Assembly (NCBI GenBank): GCA_944388145.1
Contig: CALXHQ010000003.1
Location: 52,296 to 116,295, forward strand
Direction of reading: 5' to 3'
DNA from: an uncultured Gemmiger sp.
Lineage (GTDB): Bacteria > Bacillota > Clostridia > Oscillospirales > Ruminococcaceae
DNA: 64,000 bases
A program made the position numbers and the translations under genes. Positions 4,030 through 10,057 of the stretch are shown in pieces. Below the pieces are notes generated by a model, which saw only the letters and a list, made by a program, of their open reading frames with translations, was not told the origin of the DNA and did not search any database. Positions within the stretch are counted from its first letter, which is position 1; every line of letters begins with the position of its first letter.

Positions 4030-4195
4030 TGTGTCCCATCCTTTTTGGCATAAATTGGTCGACGGTCGGGGGGGTGTTTCCCGGCGCGCTACAACTGACC
4101 TTAGTGTGGCGCCGGCAGGGCGGTTTTATGCAGAGTTCACCAAAAAAGCAGCGGGAATCGCTCCGCGATTTGTGCCAAAAAACGGCAATTTTCTA

Positions 4196-4224
4196 TGGTT
4201 CCCACTGCCAGGATGGAGTATAAT
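4196..4224 (+). promoter_or_regulatory. Possible promoter of the YitT family gene
   Basis: A perfect TATAAT stands at 4219-4224, but the -35 position 17 bp upstream (TGGTTC) is poor. It lies about 90 bp before the start codon. Confidence 0.4.
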
Positions 4225-4314
4225 AGGTCGGGTGGTGCCCGGCCTTTCCCCCGGATGCCGGCCGCATACGGGAGTGTATGCCATTTTGTGTCATGGAAAA
4301 GGATGGAACCGAAA

Positions 4315-5172
4315 ATGAAATTTGATCGCAAAAAAGACCCGCTTCGGCTGCTGGTGGTCTGCCTGGCCGCCGTGTTGATGGCGCTGAACATCAAATCCTT
4401 TGTGCGGACCGGTGGGCTGTACCCCGGCGGTGCCAACGGACTGACCCTGCTGCTGCAGCGCATTTTCGAGATGTTTGGCATCGCCATCCCCTTCACCTTT
4501 GTCAACCTGGTGCTCAATGCCTTCCCGGTTTATCTGGGCTTTCGGTACATCGGCAAAAAGTTTACGCTGTTGTCGCTGCTGATGATCATGCTGACCAACG
4601 TGCTGACCGACCTGCTGCCCTCCCTCCCCATCACCTACGACACGCTGCTCATCAGCATCTTCGGCGGTTTGATCAACGGCTTCTGCATCAGCCTCTGCCT
4701 GGCCATGAACGCCACCAGCGGCGGCACTGATTTTATCGCCATCTACTTATCTGAGAAAAAGGGCATTGATTCCTGGAACATGGTCTTTGGCCTGAACGCC
4801 GTCATCCTGCTGGCGGCCGGCCTGCTGTTCGGCTGGGACAAGGCGCTTTACTCCATCATTTTCCAGTTCACTTCCACCCAGGTGCTGCATATGACCTACA
4901 AGCGCTACCAGCAGCAGACGCTGTTTGTGGTCACCAACCGGCCCGACATGGTGGCTGAGGTCATCTCCCACCTGAGCCATCACGGTGCCACCGTCATTGA
5001 CGCCCAGGGCTCCTATGAGCACGCCGACCGCAAGATCGTCTACTCGGTAGTGTCCAGCGAGGAGAGCAAGTCGGTCATCCACGCCGTCAAGACCGCCGAC
5101 CCCAAAGCCTTTATCAATGTGGTCAAGACCCAGCAGATTTCCGGCCGCTTCTACCAAAAGCCCAACGACTGA
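4315..5172 (+). CDS. YitT family integral membrane protein (DUF161/DUF2179)
   Basis: This 285-residue protein has about five to six hydrophobic helices in residues 10-175 (DUF161) and a soluble C-terminal DUF2179 domain (~200-275). Family-typical segments are TGGLYPGGANGLTLL after the first helix and SGGTDFIAIYLSEKKGID in the loop of the second half. These proteins are widespread in Firmicutes; their transport or sensing role is not established. Start choice: the ATG at 4315 (MKFDRKKD) gives a cytoplasmic charged N-terminus and has AAAGG upstream, while longer frames add a non-conserved 40 residues. The gene is monocistronic, with a terminator directly after it. Confidence 0.85.
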   Translation: MKFDRKKDPLRLLVVCLAAVLMALNIKSFVRTGGLYPGGANGLTLLLQRIFEMFGIAIPFTFVNLVLNAFPVYLGFRYIGKKFTLLSLLMIMLTNVLTDLLPSLPITYDTLLISIFGGLINGFCISLCLAMNATSGGTDFIAIYLSEKKGIDSWNMVFGLNAVILLAAGLLFGWDKALYSIIFQFTSTQVLHMTYKRYQQQTLFVVTNRPDMVAEVISHLSHHGATVIDAQGSYEHADRKIVYSVVSSEESKSVIHAVKTADPKAFINVVKTQQISGRFYQKPND

Positions 5173-5378: not shown

Positions 5379-6764
5379 ATGCCTTTTCTTTCCCGTGCGG
5401 AGAGCCGCTTTCTCCGCCACCGGCTGAGTGTCGTGCGCCATGTCACGCTGGACCCGGGCGGGCCCGGTGTGGTTCGCATTCATCTGGTACCCTGTCGCCG
5501 CAGCCTGCGGGAAGTTCCCTATATCGCCATCCTCAACGGGCGGGACATCCTGCCGCTGAGCGTCTCCTGGGCGATTCTGCTGGTCTGCCTGATCGACGCC
5601 CTGCAGCCCTTTGAGGGGCAGGAACTGCAGACCGGCCAGTGGAACGCCGTGGTGGAGCAGGCGGTAGGCGACACCCGCACTGTCTATTCCCACACGCCGG
5701 CGGAACAGATCCGCGCCGACCTGTCCGCCATGGTGGAGGCGTTCCAGGACATTGCCCAGGGCCGCACCCCCCAGCTGCCGGTGGAGCGGATGGACCTGGG
5801 GCAGTATGCGCCCCACATGCTGGCTCCCCACCGCATGGATCTGATGATCAGCTCCATGCAGAAGGACGGCGCCTGGCAGTGCAACCAGAAATGCCTGCAC
5901 TGCTACGCCGCCAACCAGCCCTACGGCAAGACGGCGGAGCTGGACACCGACCAATGGCTGGCCGTACTGCAGAAATGCCGGGATGCCGGCATCCCGCAGG
6001 TAACCTTCACCGGCGGCGAGCCCACCCTGCGCAACGACCTGGTCAAGCTGGTGCGGGCTGCCCAGTGGTTTGTAACCCGGCTGAACACCAATGGCCGCCT
6101 GCTGACCATCCCGCTCTGCCGCGAACTGTATGAGGCCAGCCTGGACGCTGTACAGGTCACGCTATATTCCGCCGACCCGGCCGTCCACAACGCGCTGGTT
6201 GGTGCCCCCGGTTTTGAGGACACGGTCAGCGGCATCCGCAACGCGGTGGCTGCCGGCCTGAACGTGAGCATCAACACACCGCTGTGCCGCCGCAACTGCG
6301 ACCTTGCCGCCACACTGGCGTTTGTCCACAGTCTGGGGGTGCGCTATTGCACCTGCAGCGGGCTGATCCCCGCCGGCGGCGCTGTGACCGGCAGCAGCGT
6401 TTCCACCCGGCTGTCCACCGCGGAGCTGACCGACGTGCTGCGCCAGGGCAAGCAGTATGCCGACGCAAACGGCATGGAGCTGGAGTTTACCAGTCCCGGC
6501 TGGCTGGATGACCGGACGCTGGAAAACCTTGGCTTTACGCTGATTCCCAGCTGCGGGGCCTGCCTGTCCAACATGGCGGTGGCGCCGGACGGCACCGTAC
6601 TGCCCTGCCAGAGCTGGCTGTCCGGCCCGGGGCTGGGCAATATCCTGCACCAGCCCTGGAGCCGGATCTGGAACAGCACCGATTGCCGCCGCATCCGCCA
6701 CGTCAGTGCGCGGATGGAGCACATCTGCCAACTGGGGGACCCCCGCCGGAAGGAGGACGCATGA
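5379..6764 (+). CDS. Radical SAM protein with N-terminal accessory domain and Cys-rich C-terminus
   Basis: This 461-residue protein carries the radical SAM signature CNQKCLHC (C168-x3-C172-x2-C175) followed by the FTGGEPTLR segment that binds SAM. About 165 residues precede the signature and look like a peptide-chaperone (PqqD-like) domain, including VPYIAILNGRDILPLS. The C-terminal part has clustered Cys (SCGACLSNMAVAPDGTVLPC) typical of SPASM/Twitch auxiliary Fe-S clusters, so a role in peptide or protein modification is likely. The start at 5379 is chosen over 5304 because of the TGGAG upstream and the better N-terminus. It overlaps the next gene by 4 bp (ATGA), so the two are translationally coupled. 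Substrate is unknown; the Cys-rich neighbour is the obvious candidate. Confidence 0.85.
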   Translation: MPFLSRAESRFLRHRLSVVRHVTLDPGGPGVVRIHLVPCRRSLREVPYIAILNGRDILPLSVSWAILLVCLIDALQPFEGQELQTGQWNAVVEQAVGDTRTVYSHTPAEQIRADLSAMVEAFQDIAQGRTPQLPVERMDLGQYAPHMLAPHRMDLMISSMQKDGAWQCNQKCLHCYAANQPYGKTAELDTDQWLAVLQKCRDAGIPQVTFTGGEPTLRNDLVKLVRAAQWFVTRLNTNGRLLTIPLCRELYEASLDAVQVTLYSADPAVHNALVGAPGFEDTVSGIRNAVAAGLNVSINTPLCRRNCDLAATLAFVHSLGVRYCTCSGLIPAGGAVTGSSVSTRLSTAELTDVLRQGKQYADANGMELEFTSPGWLDDRTLENLGFTLIPSCGACLSNMAVAPDGTVLPCQSWLSGPGLGNILHQPWSRIWNSTDCRRIRHVSARMEHICQLGDPRRKEDA

Positions 6765-7912
6765 AAGCACAAGTTCAGCACCGCACTGCCGTTGCGGCGA
6801 GCCTGCTGGCCGGCCTGATGCTGGCCGCCACGGTCTGTGCGCCGGCCGCTCTGGCCGATGCCGGCGATTATGACGAGATCACCAGCTATGTGGTCACGGT
6901 GGACCCCCGCCAGGACGGCAGCGCCGACATCACCTATGCGATCGACTGGAGCGTGGTGGGCGGCGGCGAGGACGACTATCTTTCCTGGGTGAACATCGGC
7001 CTGGCCAACGAGTACGCCGACGAGTTTGTGAACCTGACCCCTGACACGGTGGAGGATGTATGCCTGTACACTGAAAACGGCAGCTACGCCCAGGTGACCT
7101 TTCTGGACCGGTACTATGCCCCCGACGTAGCCCGGCGCAACGGCGGCGAAAGTCAGGTGCATTTTGCCTTTCAGGTACACCAGAGCCATCTGTTCACCGA
7201 AAATGCCGACAACACCGCCAGCTTTGCCTTCACCCCCGGGTGGTTTGATGAGATCTGCGTGGACAGCCTGACGGTGCGCTGGCGCAATTATGCGGGCTTT
7301 GAGGCGGACAACCAATCCGTGGAGGGAGACTATCTGGTGTGGCAGTTCGGCCCGCTGGACCACGGCGAGCAGGTGACCGTCAACGTGAAGGTGCCGGTCA
7401 CCACCGCCCAGGTGTTTGACCCCGCTGCCGCCCAAACCGGCGAGGAGCTGACCCCCGACGCTCCCAGGCACAGCAGCAGCGACGCGGGCGAGATCGCCAG
7501 CGCCCTGGTGCTGATCTTCCTGGCGCTGTTTGTCATCAGTGTGGTGTTCGCCGCCCGCCCGGCCCGCTGGCGGGGCGGTTTTGGCGCCTCCTACGACCCG
7601 ATGGCCTGGGTCTGGTTTTATAACGGCAGCCAGTATCTGCGCATGCGCCGCGGCGCTGCGCCGCCGCCGGGCTACCACGCATCCTCGCCGCCGCCGGGCT
7701 TTCATGCAGGCGGCGGCAAAACCCGCGGCGGCGGCGCCGGGCGGGATACCAGCCACCACGGCAGTTGTGTGTGCGCCTGTGCCTGCGTATCTTGCGCCTG
7801 CGCCTGTGCCTGTGCCGGCGGCGGCCGCGCCGGGTGCAGCGTGAAGAATTTCTACCGCGTCGGCCTGCCCCGGAAGGCCCGCCCCGATGAGGAACCCTAC
7901 AATGAGCATTGA
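6761..7912 (+). CDS. Exported membrane-anchored protein with alternating Cys-X tail
   Basis: This 383-residue protein has four parts: a signal peptide (residues 1-33, ending ALADAG); an extracellular beta-rich domain (~34-220) reminiscent of DUF2207-type domains; a TM helix near residues 247-267 (ALVLIFLALFVISVVFA); and a cytoplasmic tail. The tail contains two PPPGYH/PPPGFH units and then an alternating Cys segment (SCVCACACVSCACACACAG) plus RAGCS, nine Cys in all. This tail should face the cytoplasm, where a radical SAM enzyme could reach it. Start: ATG at 6761 with GGAAGGAGG upstream and overlap with the previous stop. No metal-thiol or RiPP family could be assigned with certainty. Confidence 0.8.
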   Translation: MKAQVQHRTAVAASLLAGLMLAATVCAPAALADAGDYDEITSYVVTVDPRQDGSADITYAIDWSVVGGGEDDYLSWVNIGLANEYADEFVNLTPDTVEDVCLYTENGSYAQVTFLDRYYAPDVARRNGGESQVHFAFQVHQSHLFTENADNTASFAFTPGWFDEICVDSLTVRWRNYAGFEADNQSVEGDYLVWQFGPLDHGEQVTVNVKVPVTTAQVFDPAAAQTGEELTPDAPRHSSSDAGEIASALVLIFLALFVISVVFAARPARWRGGFGASYDPMAWVWFYNGSQYLRMRRGAAPPPGYHASSPPPGFHAGGGKTRGGGAGRDTSHHGSCVCACACVSCACACACAGGGRAGCSVKNFYRVGLPRKARPDEEPYNEH

Positions 7913-9965
7913 AAGCCAGTATGACGCCTGGGTGCGGGGCCTGGTGGGCTCCGCCCGGTCCGGCAACCGCCAGGATGCGGATGCCGCCGCCCAGAGTGTA
8001 CAGGAGATGCAGAAAGCGCTGGACGAGCTGTCTGCCCAAAACACCCGGCACCGCACAGCCGCCGATCAGGCTGCCGGGGCCGTGAGCCGCGCCGCCGGAG
8101 CCACCATGGAACAGGTGCGCCGCATGAGTGATGAGCTGACCGCCTCGCTGCAGCGGGACGGATTGTTGGGCAAGACCGCCTCTGCCGCCCAGGCCGCGCC
8201 CGCAGCACCCCAGACCGCCGCCCACGGCAGCTTTGCAGGCCTGGCGGATCGGGTGCGCACCCGGGTGTTGGGGCAGGACGCCTTTGTCGGTGCCATTGTC
8301 AAGGCCTTCCGCCGCCCCTTTGTGATGGGTGTGCCGGACGCCGCCCACGCCCGCAGCGTAATGCTGTTGTGCGGTGCCGAGGGCACCGGCCGCCACTACG
8401 CCCTGCGCTGCGTGGCGGAGGAACTGGCCGCCCGGGGGCTGATCTCCACCGCCCGCATCGAGACGATGGACCTGGCCCTGTACCCCGGTCCCGCGCAGGA
8501 AAAGCTGTTTTTGCAGGACCTGTACGCCGCCCTGACCTGTGACGCTGAGATTCTGGCCTTTGACCATTACGAGGGTTGTGCCTCGGCCTACCTGAACATG
8601 CTGGCCACCCTGGCCATCGACGGCACACTGGCGCTGAACAGCCGGTATGTGCTGCAGCGGGGCATCCTGGTGGATGTGGGCACCGCACTGGCGCCCGACG
8701 CGGTGGGCGAACTGCAGGCGCGGGGCAAATATTTTGTCTTTTTCTCCGCCAACGGACCCGAAGCCCTGGCAGAACGGTTCGGCGCCCGGTTTGTGGATGC
8801 ACTTTCCGGCGACATCTGCCGTACCGAGCCTTTCACCCCCGAAAGTCTGAATGCCATCGCCGCCCGGGAGCTGAACGCCCTGGCCCAGAAGGTCAAGGCC
8901 CAGTGCCACCTGACCCTGACCGCCGGCAGCGAGGTGCGTGACCTGCTGGCGGGGCAGTATGGCCGCACCACCGGCGTGGACGCCATTCAGGAGTACGCCG
9001 GCAACGCCTACCGCGCGGTGGTGGAGTATGTGCTGGACCACGAGGCCCCGCTGCCGGAAGGGACCACCATCCGGCTGAGCGTGGCGGACGGCCGCCTGAT
9101 GGCTGCCGTAAATGAGGGCGAAGCCTTTGACCTTTTGAATCTGCTGCCCCAGCAGTACCGGGGCGATGTGGCCGCGGTGGAGGCCGAGCTGAACGCCATT
9201 GTGGGCCTGGATGAAGTCAAAGCCTTTGTGCGGGATATTGCCAGCAACGTGCAGGCCCAGCAGCGGCGCAAAGCTCAGGGGCTGAAAGCCGCCACCGTCA
9301 ACCTGCACATGATCTTTACCGGCAACCCGGGCACCGGCAAAACCACCATTGCCCGCATCCTGTCCAAGTATCTGAAGTCCATCGGCGCGCTGCGGGGCGG
9401 CCAGCTGGTGGAGGTGACCCGGGCCGACCTGGTGGGCCGGTATGTGGGCCACACGGCGCCGCTGACCAATCAGGTGATCCGCAGCGCCCTGGGCGGCGTG
9501 CTGTTCATCGATGAAGCGTACAGCCTTTACCGCGGCCGGGAGGACAGCTTTGGCCTGGAGGCCATCGACACGCTGGTCAAGGGCATTGAGGACCACCGGG
9601 ACGACCTGGTGGTGATCCTGGCCGGCTATACCCATGAGATGCAGCAGTTTTTGACCGCCAACTCAGGGCTGGCCAGCCGGTTTCCCAACCAGATCGAGTT
9701 CCCCGATTACACCGCCGGCCAGCTGTGGCAAATCAGCCAGTCCGTCGCCAAGGGCAAGGGTTACGTGCTGGACGCCGCCTGCGAGCCCCCGCTGAAGGCC
9801 TACTTTGCCCGCAAGCAGACTGAAAATCCGGGCAAAAACGGCAACGGCCGCATGGCCCGCAATGTGGTGGAACGCGCCATTCTGAACCAATCCAAACGGC
9901 TGGTGGCCGACCCGGACGCCTCGATGGAGCTGCTGCTGCCCGGTGACTTTGACCTGGATGACTGA
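7902..9965 (+). CDS. CbxX/CfqX-type AAA+ ATPase with two AAA modules
   Basis: This 687-residue cytoplasmic protein has a helical Ala/Gln-rich N-terminus (~1-115) and two AAA modules. The first (~120-400) is degenerate: its Walker A position reads CGAEGTGRH (no Lys-Thr) and Walker B reads ILAFDHYEG. The second (~430-670) is intact: Walker A GNPGTGKTT near residue 472, Walker B GGVLFIDEAY near 530, and the CbxX-like ILAGYTHEMQQFL segment. Relatives include SpoVK and rubisco-activase-type CbxX, which remodel protein complexes. It overlaps the Cys-tail gene by 11 bp, so it acts with that unit. ATG 7902 follows GAGGAA; ATG 7887 is an alternative start. Confidence 0.88.
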   Translation: MSIESQYDAWVRGLVGSARSGNRQDADAAAQSVQEMQKALDELSAQNTRHRTAADQAAGAVSRAAGATMEQVRRMSDELTASLQRDGLLGKTASAAQAAPAAPQTAAHGSFAGLADRVRTRVLGQDAFVGAIVKAFRRPFVMGVPDAAHARSVMLLCGAEGTGRHYALRCVAEELAARGLISTARIETMDLALYPGPAQEKLFLQDLYAALTCDAEILAFDHYEGCASAYLNMLATLAIDGTLALNSRYVLQRGILVDVGTALAPDAVGELQARGKYFVFFSANGPEALAERFGARFVDALSGDICRTEPFTPESLNAIAARELNALAQKVKAQCHLTLTAGSEVRDLLAGQYGRTTGVDAIQEYAGNAYRAVVEYVLDHEAPLPEGTTIRLSVADGRLMAAVNEGEAFDLLNLLPQQYRGDVAAVEAELNAIVGLDEVKAFVRDIASNVQAQQRRKAQGLKAATVNLHMIFTGNPGTGKTTIARILSKYLKSIGALRGGQLVEVTRADLVGRYVGHTAPLTNQVIRSALGGVLFIDEAYSLYRGREDSFGLEAIDTLVKGIEDHRDDLVVILAGYTHEMQQFLTANSGLASRFPNQIEFPDYTAGQLWQISQSVAKGKGYVLDAACEPPLKAYFARKQTENPGKNGNGRMARNVVERAILNQSKRLVADPDASMELLLPGDFDLDD

Positions 9966-9993
9966 CGGCATCTCTATCTAGACAGAACTGCAC

Positions 9994-10040
9994 AAAAACA
10001 TCCCCGGCAGAACCATAGGGTTCCGTCGGGGATGTTTTTT
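9994..10040. terminator. Bidirectional terminator between the AAA+ and LCP genes
   Basis: A long imperfect stem (AAAAACATCCCC with GGGGATGTTTTTT) with an inner arm lies between convergent genes. It has A/T runs on both sides, so it can work in both directions. Confidence 0.88.
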
Positions 10041-10057
10041 GTGCCGCGCGGCGGCAG

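Follow-up and report, generated by a model that had tools for sequence, protein, structure and literature searches.

A conserved pair of genes for a radical SAM enzyme and a membrane protein with a cysteine-alanine tail, the tail being the probable substrate of the enzyme

What might a radical S-adenosylmethionine (SAM) enzyme do beside a membrane protein that ends in an array of alternating cysteines? The question is raised by a 64,000-nucleotide stretch of DNA from an uncultured Gemmiger sp. (contig CALXHQ010000003.1 of assembly GCA_944388145.1; the whole stretch is called the window here), where a radical SAM/SPASM enzyme of 461 amino acids (positions 5379..6764, + strand; Pfam matches PF04055, E 3.8e-20, and PF13186, E 1.4e-8) is followed by a protein of 383 amino acids with a signal segment, an ectodomain, a membrane helix and a Cys-Ala tail (the tail protein; 6761..7912, + strand), and then by an AAA+ ATPase. 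We conclude that the first two genes probably form a two-gene system in which the enzyme modifies the cytoplasmic tail of an anchored membrane protein, and that the ATPase looks like a clade-specific local companion around this core.

The linkage of the two genes is the principal evidence. A search of genome contigs with the pattern CACACAGGGRAGC gave at least 119 stretches of up to 8 kb, which hold 122 tail genes, and the counts from this search refer throughout to these matches as listed. With six tail genes at contig edges left out (L098, L104, L120, L131, L134 and L151), an orthologous enzyme adjoins 115 of the 116 that can be assessed. For 96 of the 122, an enzyme matched by the genus profile is found on the same strand no more than 1500 bases away; the other 26 were traced in their genomes, where the enzyme is present for 22. 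For 17 of the 26, it is adjacent just beyond the stored stretch, within about 1.2 kb of the edge and on the correct side and strand, these coordinate-based pairings resting on the assumption that numbered contig and record are identical, and in two further cases (L071 and L086), a divergently placed enzyme is common to the tail gene and a second one. The sole unpaired tail gene (L092) has its start region missing and lies beside an unrelated gene, and a search of that genome found no enzyme. Two tail genes beside a single enzyme, in tandem or divergent, are seen in several loci (L071, L129, L154, L201 and L082/L086). The linkage supports the proposal of an earlier, sequence-only reading of this DNA, namely, that the enzyme would modify or load the Cys tail and that the product would be no secreted peptide but a modified membrane protein. 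Apart from the enzyme, the tail protein and the antisense shadows of the two, which make up the largest clusters (112, 93, 73 and 68 of the 119 stretches), no gene family is found in more than 18. A conserved third gene was rejected, the next clusters covering 18 stretches (e.g., periplasmic-binding/GGDEF) and 14 stretches (e.g., ABC transporter).

The same pairing is seen in genome samples at three taxonomic depths. Among 35 genomes of the genus (G000 to G034), the enzyme is present in 31 and the tail protein in the same 31, both being not found in G011, G017, G025 and G028 (a radical SAM match in G028, 29% identical, was excluded as a different enzyme). In a sample of the class that comprised 391 genomes, including the one that holds the window, the enzyme profile (at E 1e-60) matched 10 genomes and the tail-protein profile (at E 1e-10) matched 11, with an overlap of 10 (hypergeometric probability 5e-19); the eleventh, G800, is identical to L077 over 4 kb, and its contig begins with the last 131 residues of the enzyme. 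The two genes are neighbors in nine of these genomes and about 2.1 kb apart in G758. Finally, among 398 genomes of the phylum, 14 besides that of the window have weaker matches to the enzyme profile (209 to 351 bits), and a frame with a Cys-Ala repeat adjoins the enzyme in 13 of these 14 distant loci, the fourteenth (G402) being masked by N. Nine of the 13 distant tails read CACACVSCACA..., and the eight of these that are uncut end in GG(G/R)GAGC(A/T)xKF; the other four carry SSGGCT or GGGGCT at the very C-terminus. A variant group of three enzymes from the class sample has two tails, with GGGRVGC and VGGRVGC, and the contig of the third stops before the tail. Thus, the tail variants track the enzyme clades, GG(G/R)GAGC going with one distant clade and SSGGCT/GGGGCT with others.

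The labels of the listed records include Lachnospiraceae, Oscillospiraceae, other Clostridia, Bacilli/Acholeplasmatales/Anaeroplasma, Eggerthellaceae, Coriobacteriaceae and a single metagenome-assembled genome (MAG) of Victivallales; the records with the pair include two from named strains, Gemmiger formicilis ATCC 27749 and Hungatella hathewayi WAL-18680. Four MAGs labeled Eggerthellaceae or Coriobacteriaceae (L096, L116, L155 and L157) have enzymes that are nearest to one another. The four Coriobacteriia-labeled enzymes are 74-93% identical to one another and at most 69% identical to those of Clostridia, and because they are closest to each other, their sequences suggest transfer of the enzyme between phyla. 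The enzyme of the Victivallales-labeled record is 95% identical to that of another MAG, and this record may be a binning error. A phage origin of the pair was considered and dropped, the tail pattern having 0 matches in viral contigs.

The tail itself is the best conserved part of the protein that carries it. In the window, an N-terminal hydrophobic helix and an ectodomain precede a predicted helix at residues 241-264 (7481..7552, + strand; a hydrophobic segment is similarly placed in the relatives), and the Cys-X array at residues 335-359 forms, with the conserved end motif, the ladder SCVCACACVSCACACACAGGGRAGCSVKNFY (residues 335-365; 7763..7855, + strand), which is kept in the genus and across lineages. 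The core reads (Cys-Ala)n-GGGRAGC and is followed by a conserved (S/T)xKDFY segment. Across 54 aligned tail proteins from different lineages, the mean identity is 88% for the tail, 41% for the ectodomain and 17% for the helix, although the core is invariant by construction here because 53 of the 54 were selected by the tail motif. The array is also kept in all 30 genus members in which the end of the tail gene is present, and since these were found through whole-protein similarity, it is not a product of chance. Among the 122 motif-selected tails, the uninterrupted Cys-X units number 3 to 7, the last 80 residues hold 4 to 11 cysteines, and X is Ala at 644 of 648 places, or, with the 366 places fixed by the pattern set aside, at 278 of 282 free ones. 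A common order is shared by the clades, with a signal segment, an ectodomain of about 200 residues, a hydrophobic helix around residues 225-265 in most, and the tail near the C-terminus; a few of the frames are overlong or cut, gene starts being uncurated. Some members from Lachnospiraceae (L101, L107, L130 and others) have, between helix and tail, a zinc-ribbon-like stretch with two CxxC motifs (CPxCGAPRPEGKxxCxYCG), which fits a cytoplasmic tail and for which a Pfam scan of one such protein (L101) gave nothing named. Two contigs of one MAG (L146 and L151) each break off within the Cys-Ala repeat of the tail, which may therefore cause assemblies to split.

Database comparisons say less about the rest of this protein. 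The window protein has no Pfam match at E 1 and two NCBIfam matches far below cut-off; its profile gave a single match among solved structures, taken as chance (E 0.05). In the structure model, the ectodomain is confident and the tail is of low confidence. A fold search with the ectodomain, which resembles parts of beta-sandwich domains, returned only partial matches, none above a TM-score by query of 0.36 and among them oligosaccharyltransferase subunits and aminopeptidase N, and profile comparison ties it to the ectodomains of two distant clades (99.8% and 93.5%). There is some likeness to the DUF2207 proteins with their LemA and TPM partners. In L234, from one of the distant clades, genes for TPM-domain and LemA-family proteins lie 3' of the tail gene, with like frames in L235 and L236, and the ectodomain of one member (L108) has a weak match to PF09972 (E 0.01; 16.5 bits against a cut-off of 24.4). 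The window protein has no PF09972 match, and the DUF2207 profile reaches 73% over 31 residues of the ectodomain and less than 5% for two distant clades. Membership in DUF2207 was set aside as too weakly indicated. As a side observation, 12 of the 20 listed DUF2207 frames (L270-L289) are Gly-rich at the end (e.g., GGGFSGGGGGGGGGGGAGAF), which recalls the GGG of the Cys-Ala tails; unlike the tail proteins, they are without a Cys array. In another distant clade (L229, L230 and L231), the order is tail gene, enzyme and then a protein weakly similar to TraK_N/DUF4097 (tested in L229).

The enzyme belongs to a tight family, with a lowest pairwise identity of 41% among 74 sequences, and its cluster motif CxxxCxxC (C168/C172/C175) is invariant in 66 of 66 aligned enzymes. 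The C-terminal domain (6552..6731, + strand) is of the SPASM type (PF13186, 35.3 bits against a cut-off of 21.5), with the cysteines C392, C410 and C450 present in all 66 enzymes, C436 in 59 and C395 in 58. The CxxCxxxxxCGGxC-type run, found in six of the six aligned enzymes from distant clades, is absent from the seven of the window clade and the variant group, and the window clade lacks the full SPASM cysteine set for two auxiliary clusters. Because the auxiliary set is reduced and this run is missing, the enzymes of the window clade probably hold one auxiliary cluster. A profile search against solved structures had SkfB as the best match (E 2.3e-22, enzyme residues 166-443), and a fold search with the model of the enzyme (predicted local distance difference test score, 92.1) placed SkfB and SuiB at the top, followed by BlsE and by 5why/5wgg, which we take as CteB on the basis of PMC8326336. 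The resemblance to SkfB and other sactisynthases, the radical SAM enzymes that link Cys to an alpha-carbon through a thioether, extends to the adjoining Cys-rich partner; unlike in those systems, the partner here is a membrane protein of 300-500 residues and no small peptide. SuiB and CteB, whose partners, streptide and SCIFF, are short peptides, match in fold, with alignment columns numbering about the whole enzyme length, whereas the proposed core in our case is situated toward the C-terminal end of a membrane protein. Cys repeats also go with the radical SAM/SPASM enzyme of the ACGX-repeat system (TIGR04340); this family is outside the best 25 NCBIfam families for the window enzyme, and its model gives 55.5 bits for the enzyme of L101 and 63.6 for that of the distant-clade L229 against a cut-off of 400.

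At its N-terminus, the enzyme has a domain (residues 20-126; 5436..5756, + strand) that is possibly peptide-binding. The strands predicted for this domain (20-24, 32-37, 48-52 and 56-60) are followed by helices (62-78, 85-100 and 108-126), and in this predicted fold of four strands and three helices, it may correspond to the recognition element of ribosomally synthesized and post-translationally modified peptides (RiPPs), a winged-helix fold with three strands and three helices as described in PMC8326336. In profile comparison, it matches its counterpart in one distant clade at 99% and that in the other at 8%.

Taken together, the strict pairing, the loci with two tails, the clade-matched tail variants and the fold class of the enzyme make the tail very likely to be the substrate. 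Given the signal segment and the helix, the tail would lie on the cytoplasmic side, as does the enzyme. Under the mechanism that we propose, the tail protein would be exported by means of its signal segment and anchored by one helix, with the Cys-Ala tail facing the cytoplasm; the cytoplasmic enzyme would recognize the tail, perhaps through the (S/T)xKDFY segment and possibly with its N-terminal domain as the peptide-binding part, and would use the 5'-deoxyadenosyl radical and an auxiliary iron-sulfur cluster to modify (CA)n-GGGRAGC. The simplest chemistry would join Cys sulfurs to carbons of neighboring Ala or Gly, forming thioether rungs as SkfB does, and we give thioether crosslinks about an even chance of being the product. 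Somewhat less likely, as a whole, is the broader scenario of a widespread and so far undescribed class of radical SAM chemistry, under which the three clades of enzymes, with a tail variant peculiar to each, build a thioether ladder at the cytoplasmic end of resident membrane proteins, yielding a permanent modified anchor or switch rather than an exported peptide. As for the use of such a tail, one can only guess that, once modified, rigid and thiol-free, it serves as a signaling or assembly platform for the ectodomain.

Several observations weigh against this interpretation. The auxiliary Cys set is reduced in the window enzyme clade, and C303, invariant in the 66 enzymes, is nevertheless Val in the variant group of three, where tails remain in both members whose tail end is present. 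The fold matches of the enzyme are moderate (TM-score by query 0.44-0.59, with large root-mean-square deviations) and extend to BlsE, an enzyme other than a peptide maturase; furthermore, the enzyme of the window falls short of the cut-off in each of the 25 top NCBIfam families (52.5 bits against 300 for skfB, 55.6 against 625 for StsB). The probability of a PqqD profile match of the N-terminus is 17% for the main clade, 0.5% for the first distant clade and 82% for the other, and a Pfam scan of the N-terminus gave no PqqD match at E 10. In G635 and G818, a second tail piece lies at the edge of another contig, where linkage is not judgeable. With neither a Pfam match nor more than that 17%, direct homology of the N-terminus to PqqD was dropped, and the peptide-chaperone N-terminus that had been read from the sequence alone is plausible by predicted fold and weak by sequence.

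If the tail is modified, the modification need not be a crosslink. The enzyme might instead oxidize Cys, in the style of the anaerobic sulfatase-maturating enzyme (anSME), epimerize residues or carry out some other Cys chemistry. Although anSME is also among the fold matches of the enzyme, the tail is without a CxPxR-type motif, the motif of sulfatases. Radical SAM enzymes that epimerize peptides are known, as attested in PMC8326336, which speaks for this alternative, whereas the closest enzyme by both profile and fold is SkfB, a thioether-forming enzyme according to PMC6231123. We consider such crosslink-free chemistry rather unlikely.

Less probable still is that the tail is an unmodified scaffold for metal, cluster or redox chemistry, with the enzyme working with it, for instance, by receiving electrons or a cluster, and not on it. 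The 4 to 11 cysteines at each tail end and the conservation of the auxiliary Cys set of the enzyme are in line with this possibility, and it counts against modification, too, that an alternating Cys array could bind metal as it stands. Metal binding, however, would not call for the near-fixed Ala between the cysteines at the free places; the nearest predicted folds of the enzyme are those of peptide maturases, and the tail variants vary with the enzyme clade, both of which argue for the tail as the substrate.

The AAA+ ATPase (7902..9965, + strand) has a SpoVK/CbxX-like C-terminal module, with Pfam matches above cut-off in that half (PF00004, 75.6 bits; PF17866, the AAA lid, 42.1 bits), and, in its N-terminal part, an AAA-like module with weak support (Torsin, 22.3 bits, and ClpA, 26.3 bits, both below cut-off). 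It thus resembles SpoVK, CbbX and EccA in the C-terminal module and differs from them in the extra N-terminal part and in falling below the equivalog cut-offs (307.7 bits against 422.95 for SpoVK, TIGR02881; 248.2 against 459.25 for CbbX). In the window, the enzyme and tail genes overlap by 4 bp (ATGA) and the tail and ATPase genes by 11 bp with the start at 7902, an alternative in-frame ATG for the ATPase lying at 7887. A terminator-like hairpin follows the ATPase gene (about 9990..10044, + strand; -38.6 kcal/mol, with a T run after it; z -7.76, with none of 200 shuffles equally stable), although a scan with a terminator consensus did not list it at 9990-10044. The coordinates and the hairpin energy thus confirm the three overlapping genes ending in a terminator that were described in the sequence-only reading, which thus took the sequence correctly. 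Upstream of the unit is a gene for a YitT-family membrane protein (4195-5172; PF02588, PF10035).

From this arrangement, one could envisage a three-part unit in which the ATPase serves to assemble or extract the tail protein once it is modified, and indeed, besides the overlaps, 30 of the 31 genomes of the genus that carry the pair have the ATPase next to it, in the order enzyme-tail-AAA+ and with the window among them (in the remaining one, G023, the contig stops inside the tail gene). The spacing between the tail and ATPase genes is about 200-300 bases in G016 and G029, so the overlap is not universal in the genus. Across the listed stretches, however, the ATPase is found 3' of the tail gene in only 8 of the 119, or for 7 of the 78 tail genes that have 2.5 kb or more of sequence downstream, in records labeled Gemmiger, Fournierella and one Faecalibacterium MAG. 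It is encoded in 33 of the 35 genus genomes (G023 and G025 being without it, and a contig end cutting it short in G017), among them G011 and G028, which are without the pair; because these two are sisters nested within the genus in the tree of the ATPase proteins (read without support values), the pair was probably lost once, with the ATPase retained. This distribution led us to reject the ATPase as a core partner: of the co-occurrence and conserved order expected from the sequence alone for all three families, the enzyme and tail bear out their part and the ATPase does not, and its inclusion in the mechanism is unsupported. We regard the three-part unit as quite improbable; in Gemmiger, the ATPase would be an extra partner that has a function of its own.

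That the enzyme acts on some other substrate, with the tail protein as a membrane sensor or tether, is highly improbable: the ectodomain is conserved as well (at the mean identity given above) and beta-sandwich-like in the model, but any other family reaches at most 18 of the 119 stretches (a distantly encoded substrate would escape such a count), and some loci have two tail proteins per enzyme.

The nearest known kind of system to the two-gene pair, in which the enzyme would modify the tail, is thus that of the radical SAM peptide maturases, with a resident membrane protein as the proposed substrate. A RiPP in the usual sense it is not, the partner being a protein of 383 amino acids with a predicted membrane helix and not a short, leader-bearing precursor. 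The literature searched, most subscription journals being outside its scope, gave no description of the enzyme-tail pair, and in scans with Pfam and NCBIfam, nothing above cut-off matched the architecture of the tail partner. Should the proposal hold, it would assign a first function to a family left nameless by these scans and extend radical SAM peptide chemistry from small peptides and cofactors to standing membrane proteins. The pair is compact, consisting of two genes, and is present in named strains, and if the tail is indeed modified, such maturation of membrane proteins would be taking place in common bacteria of the gut and the rumen.

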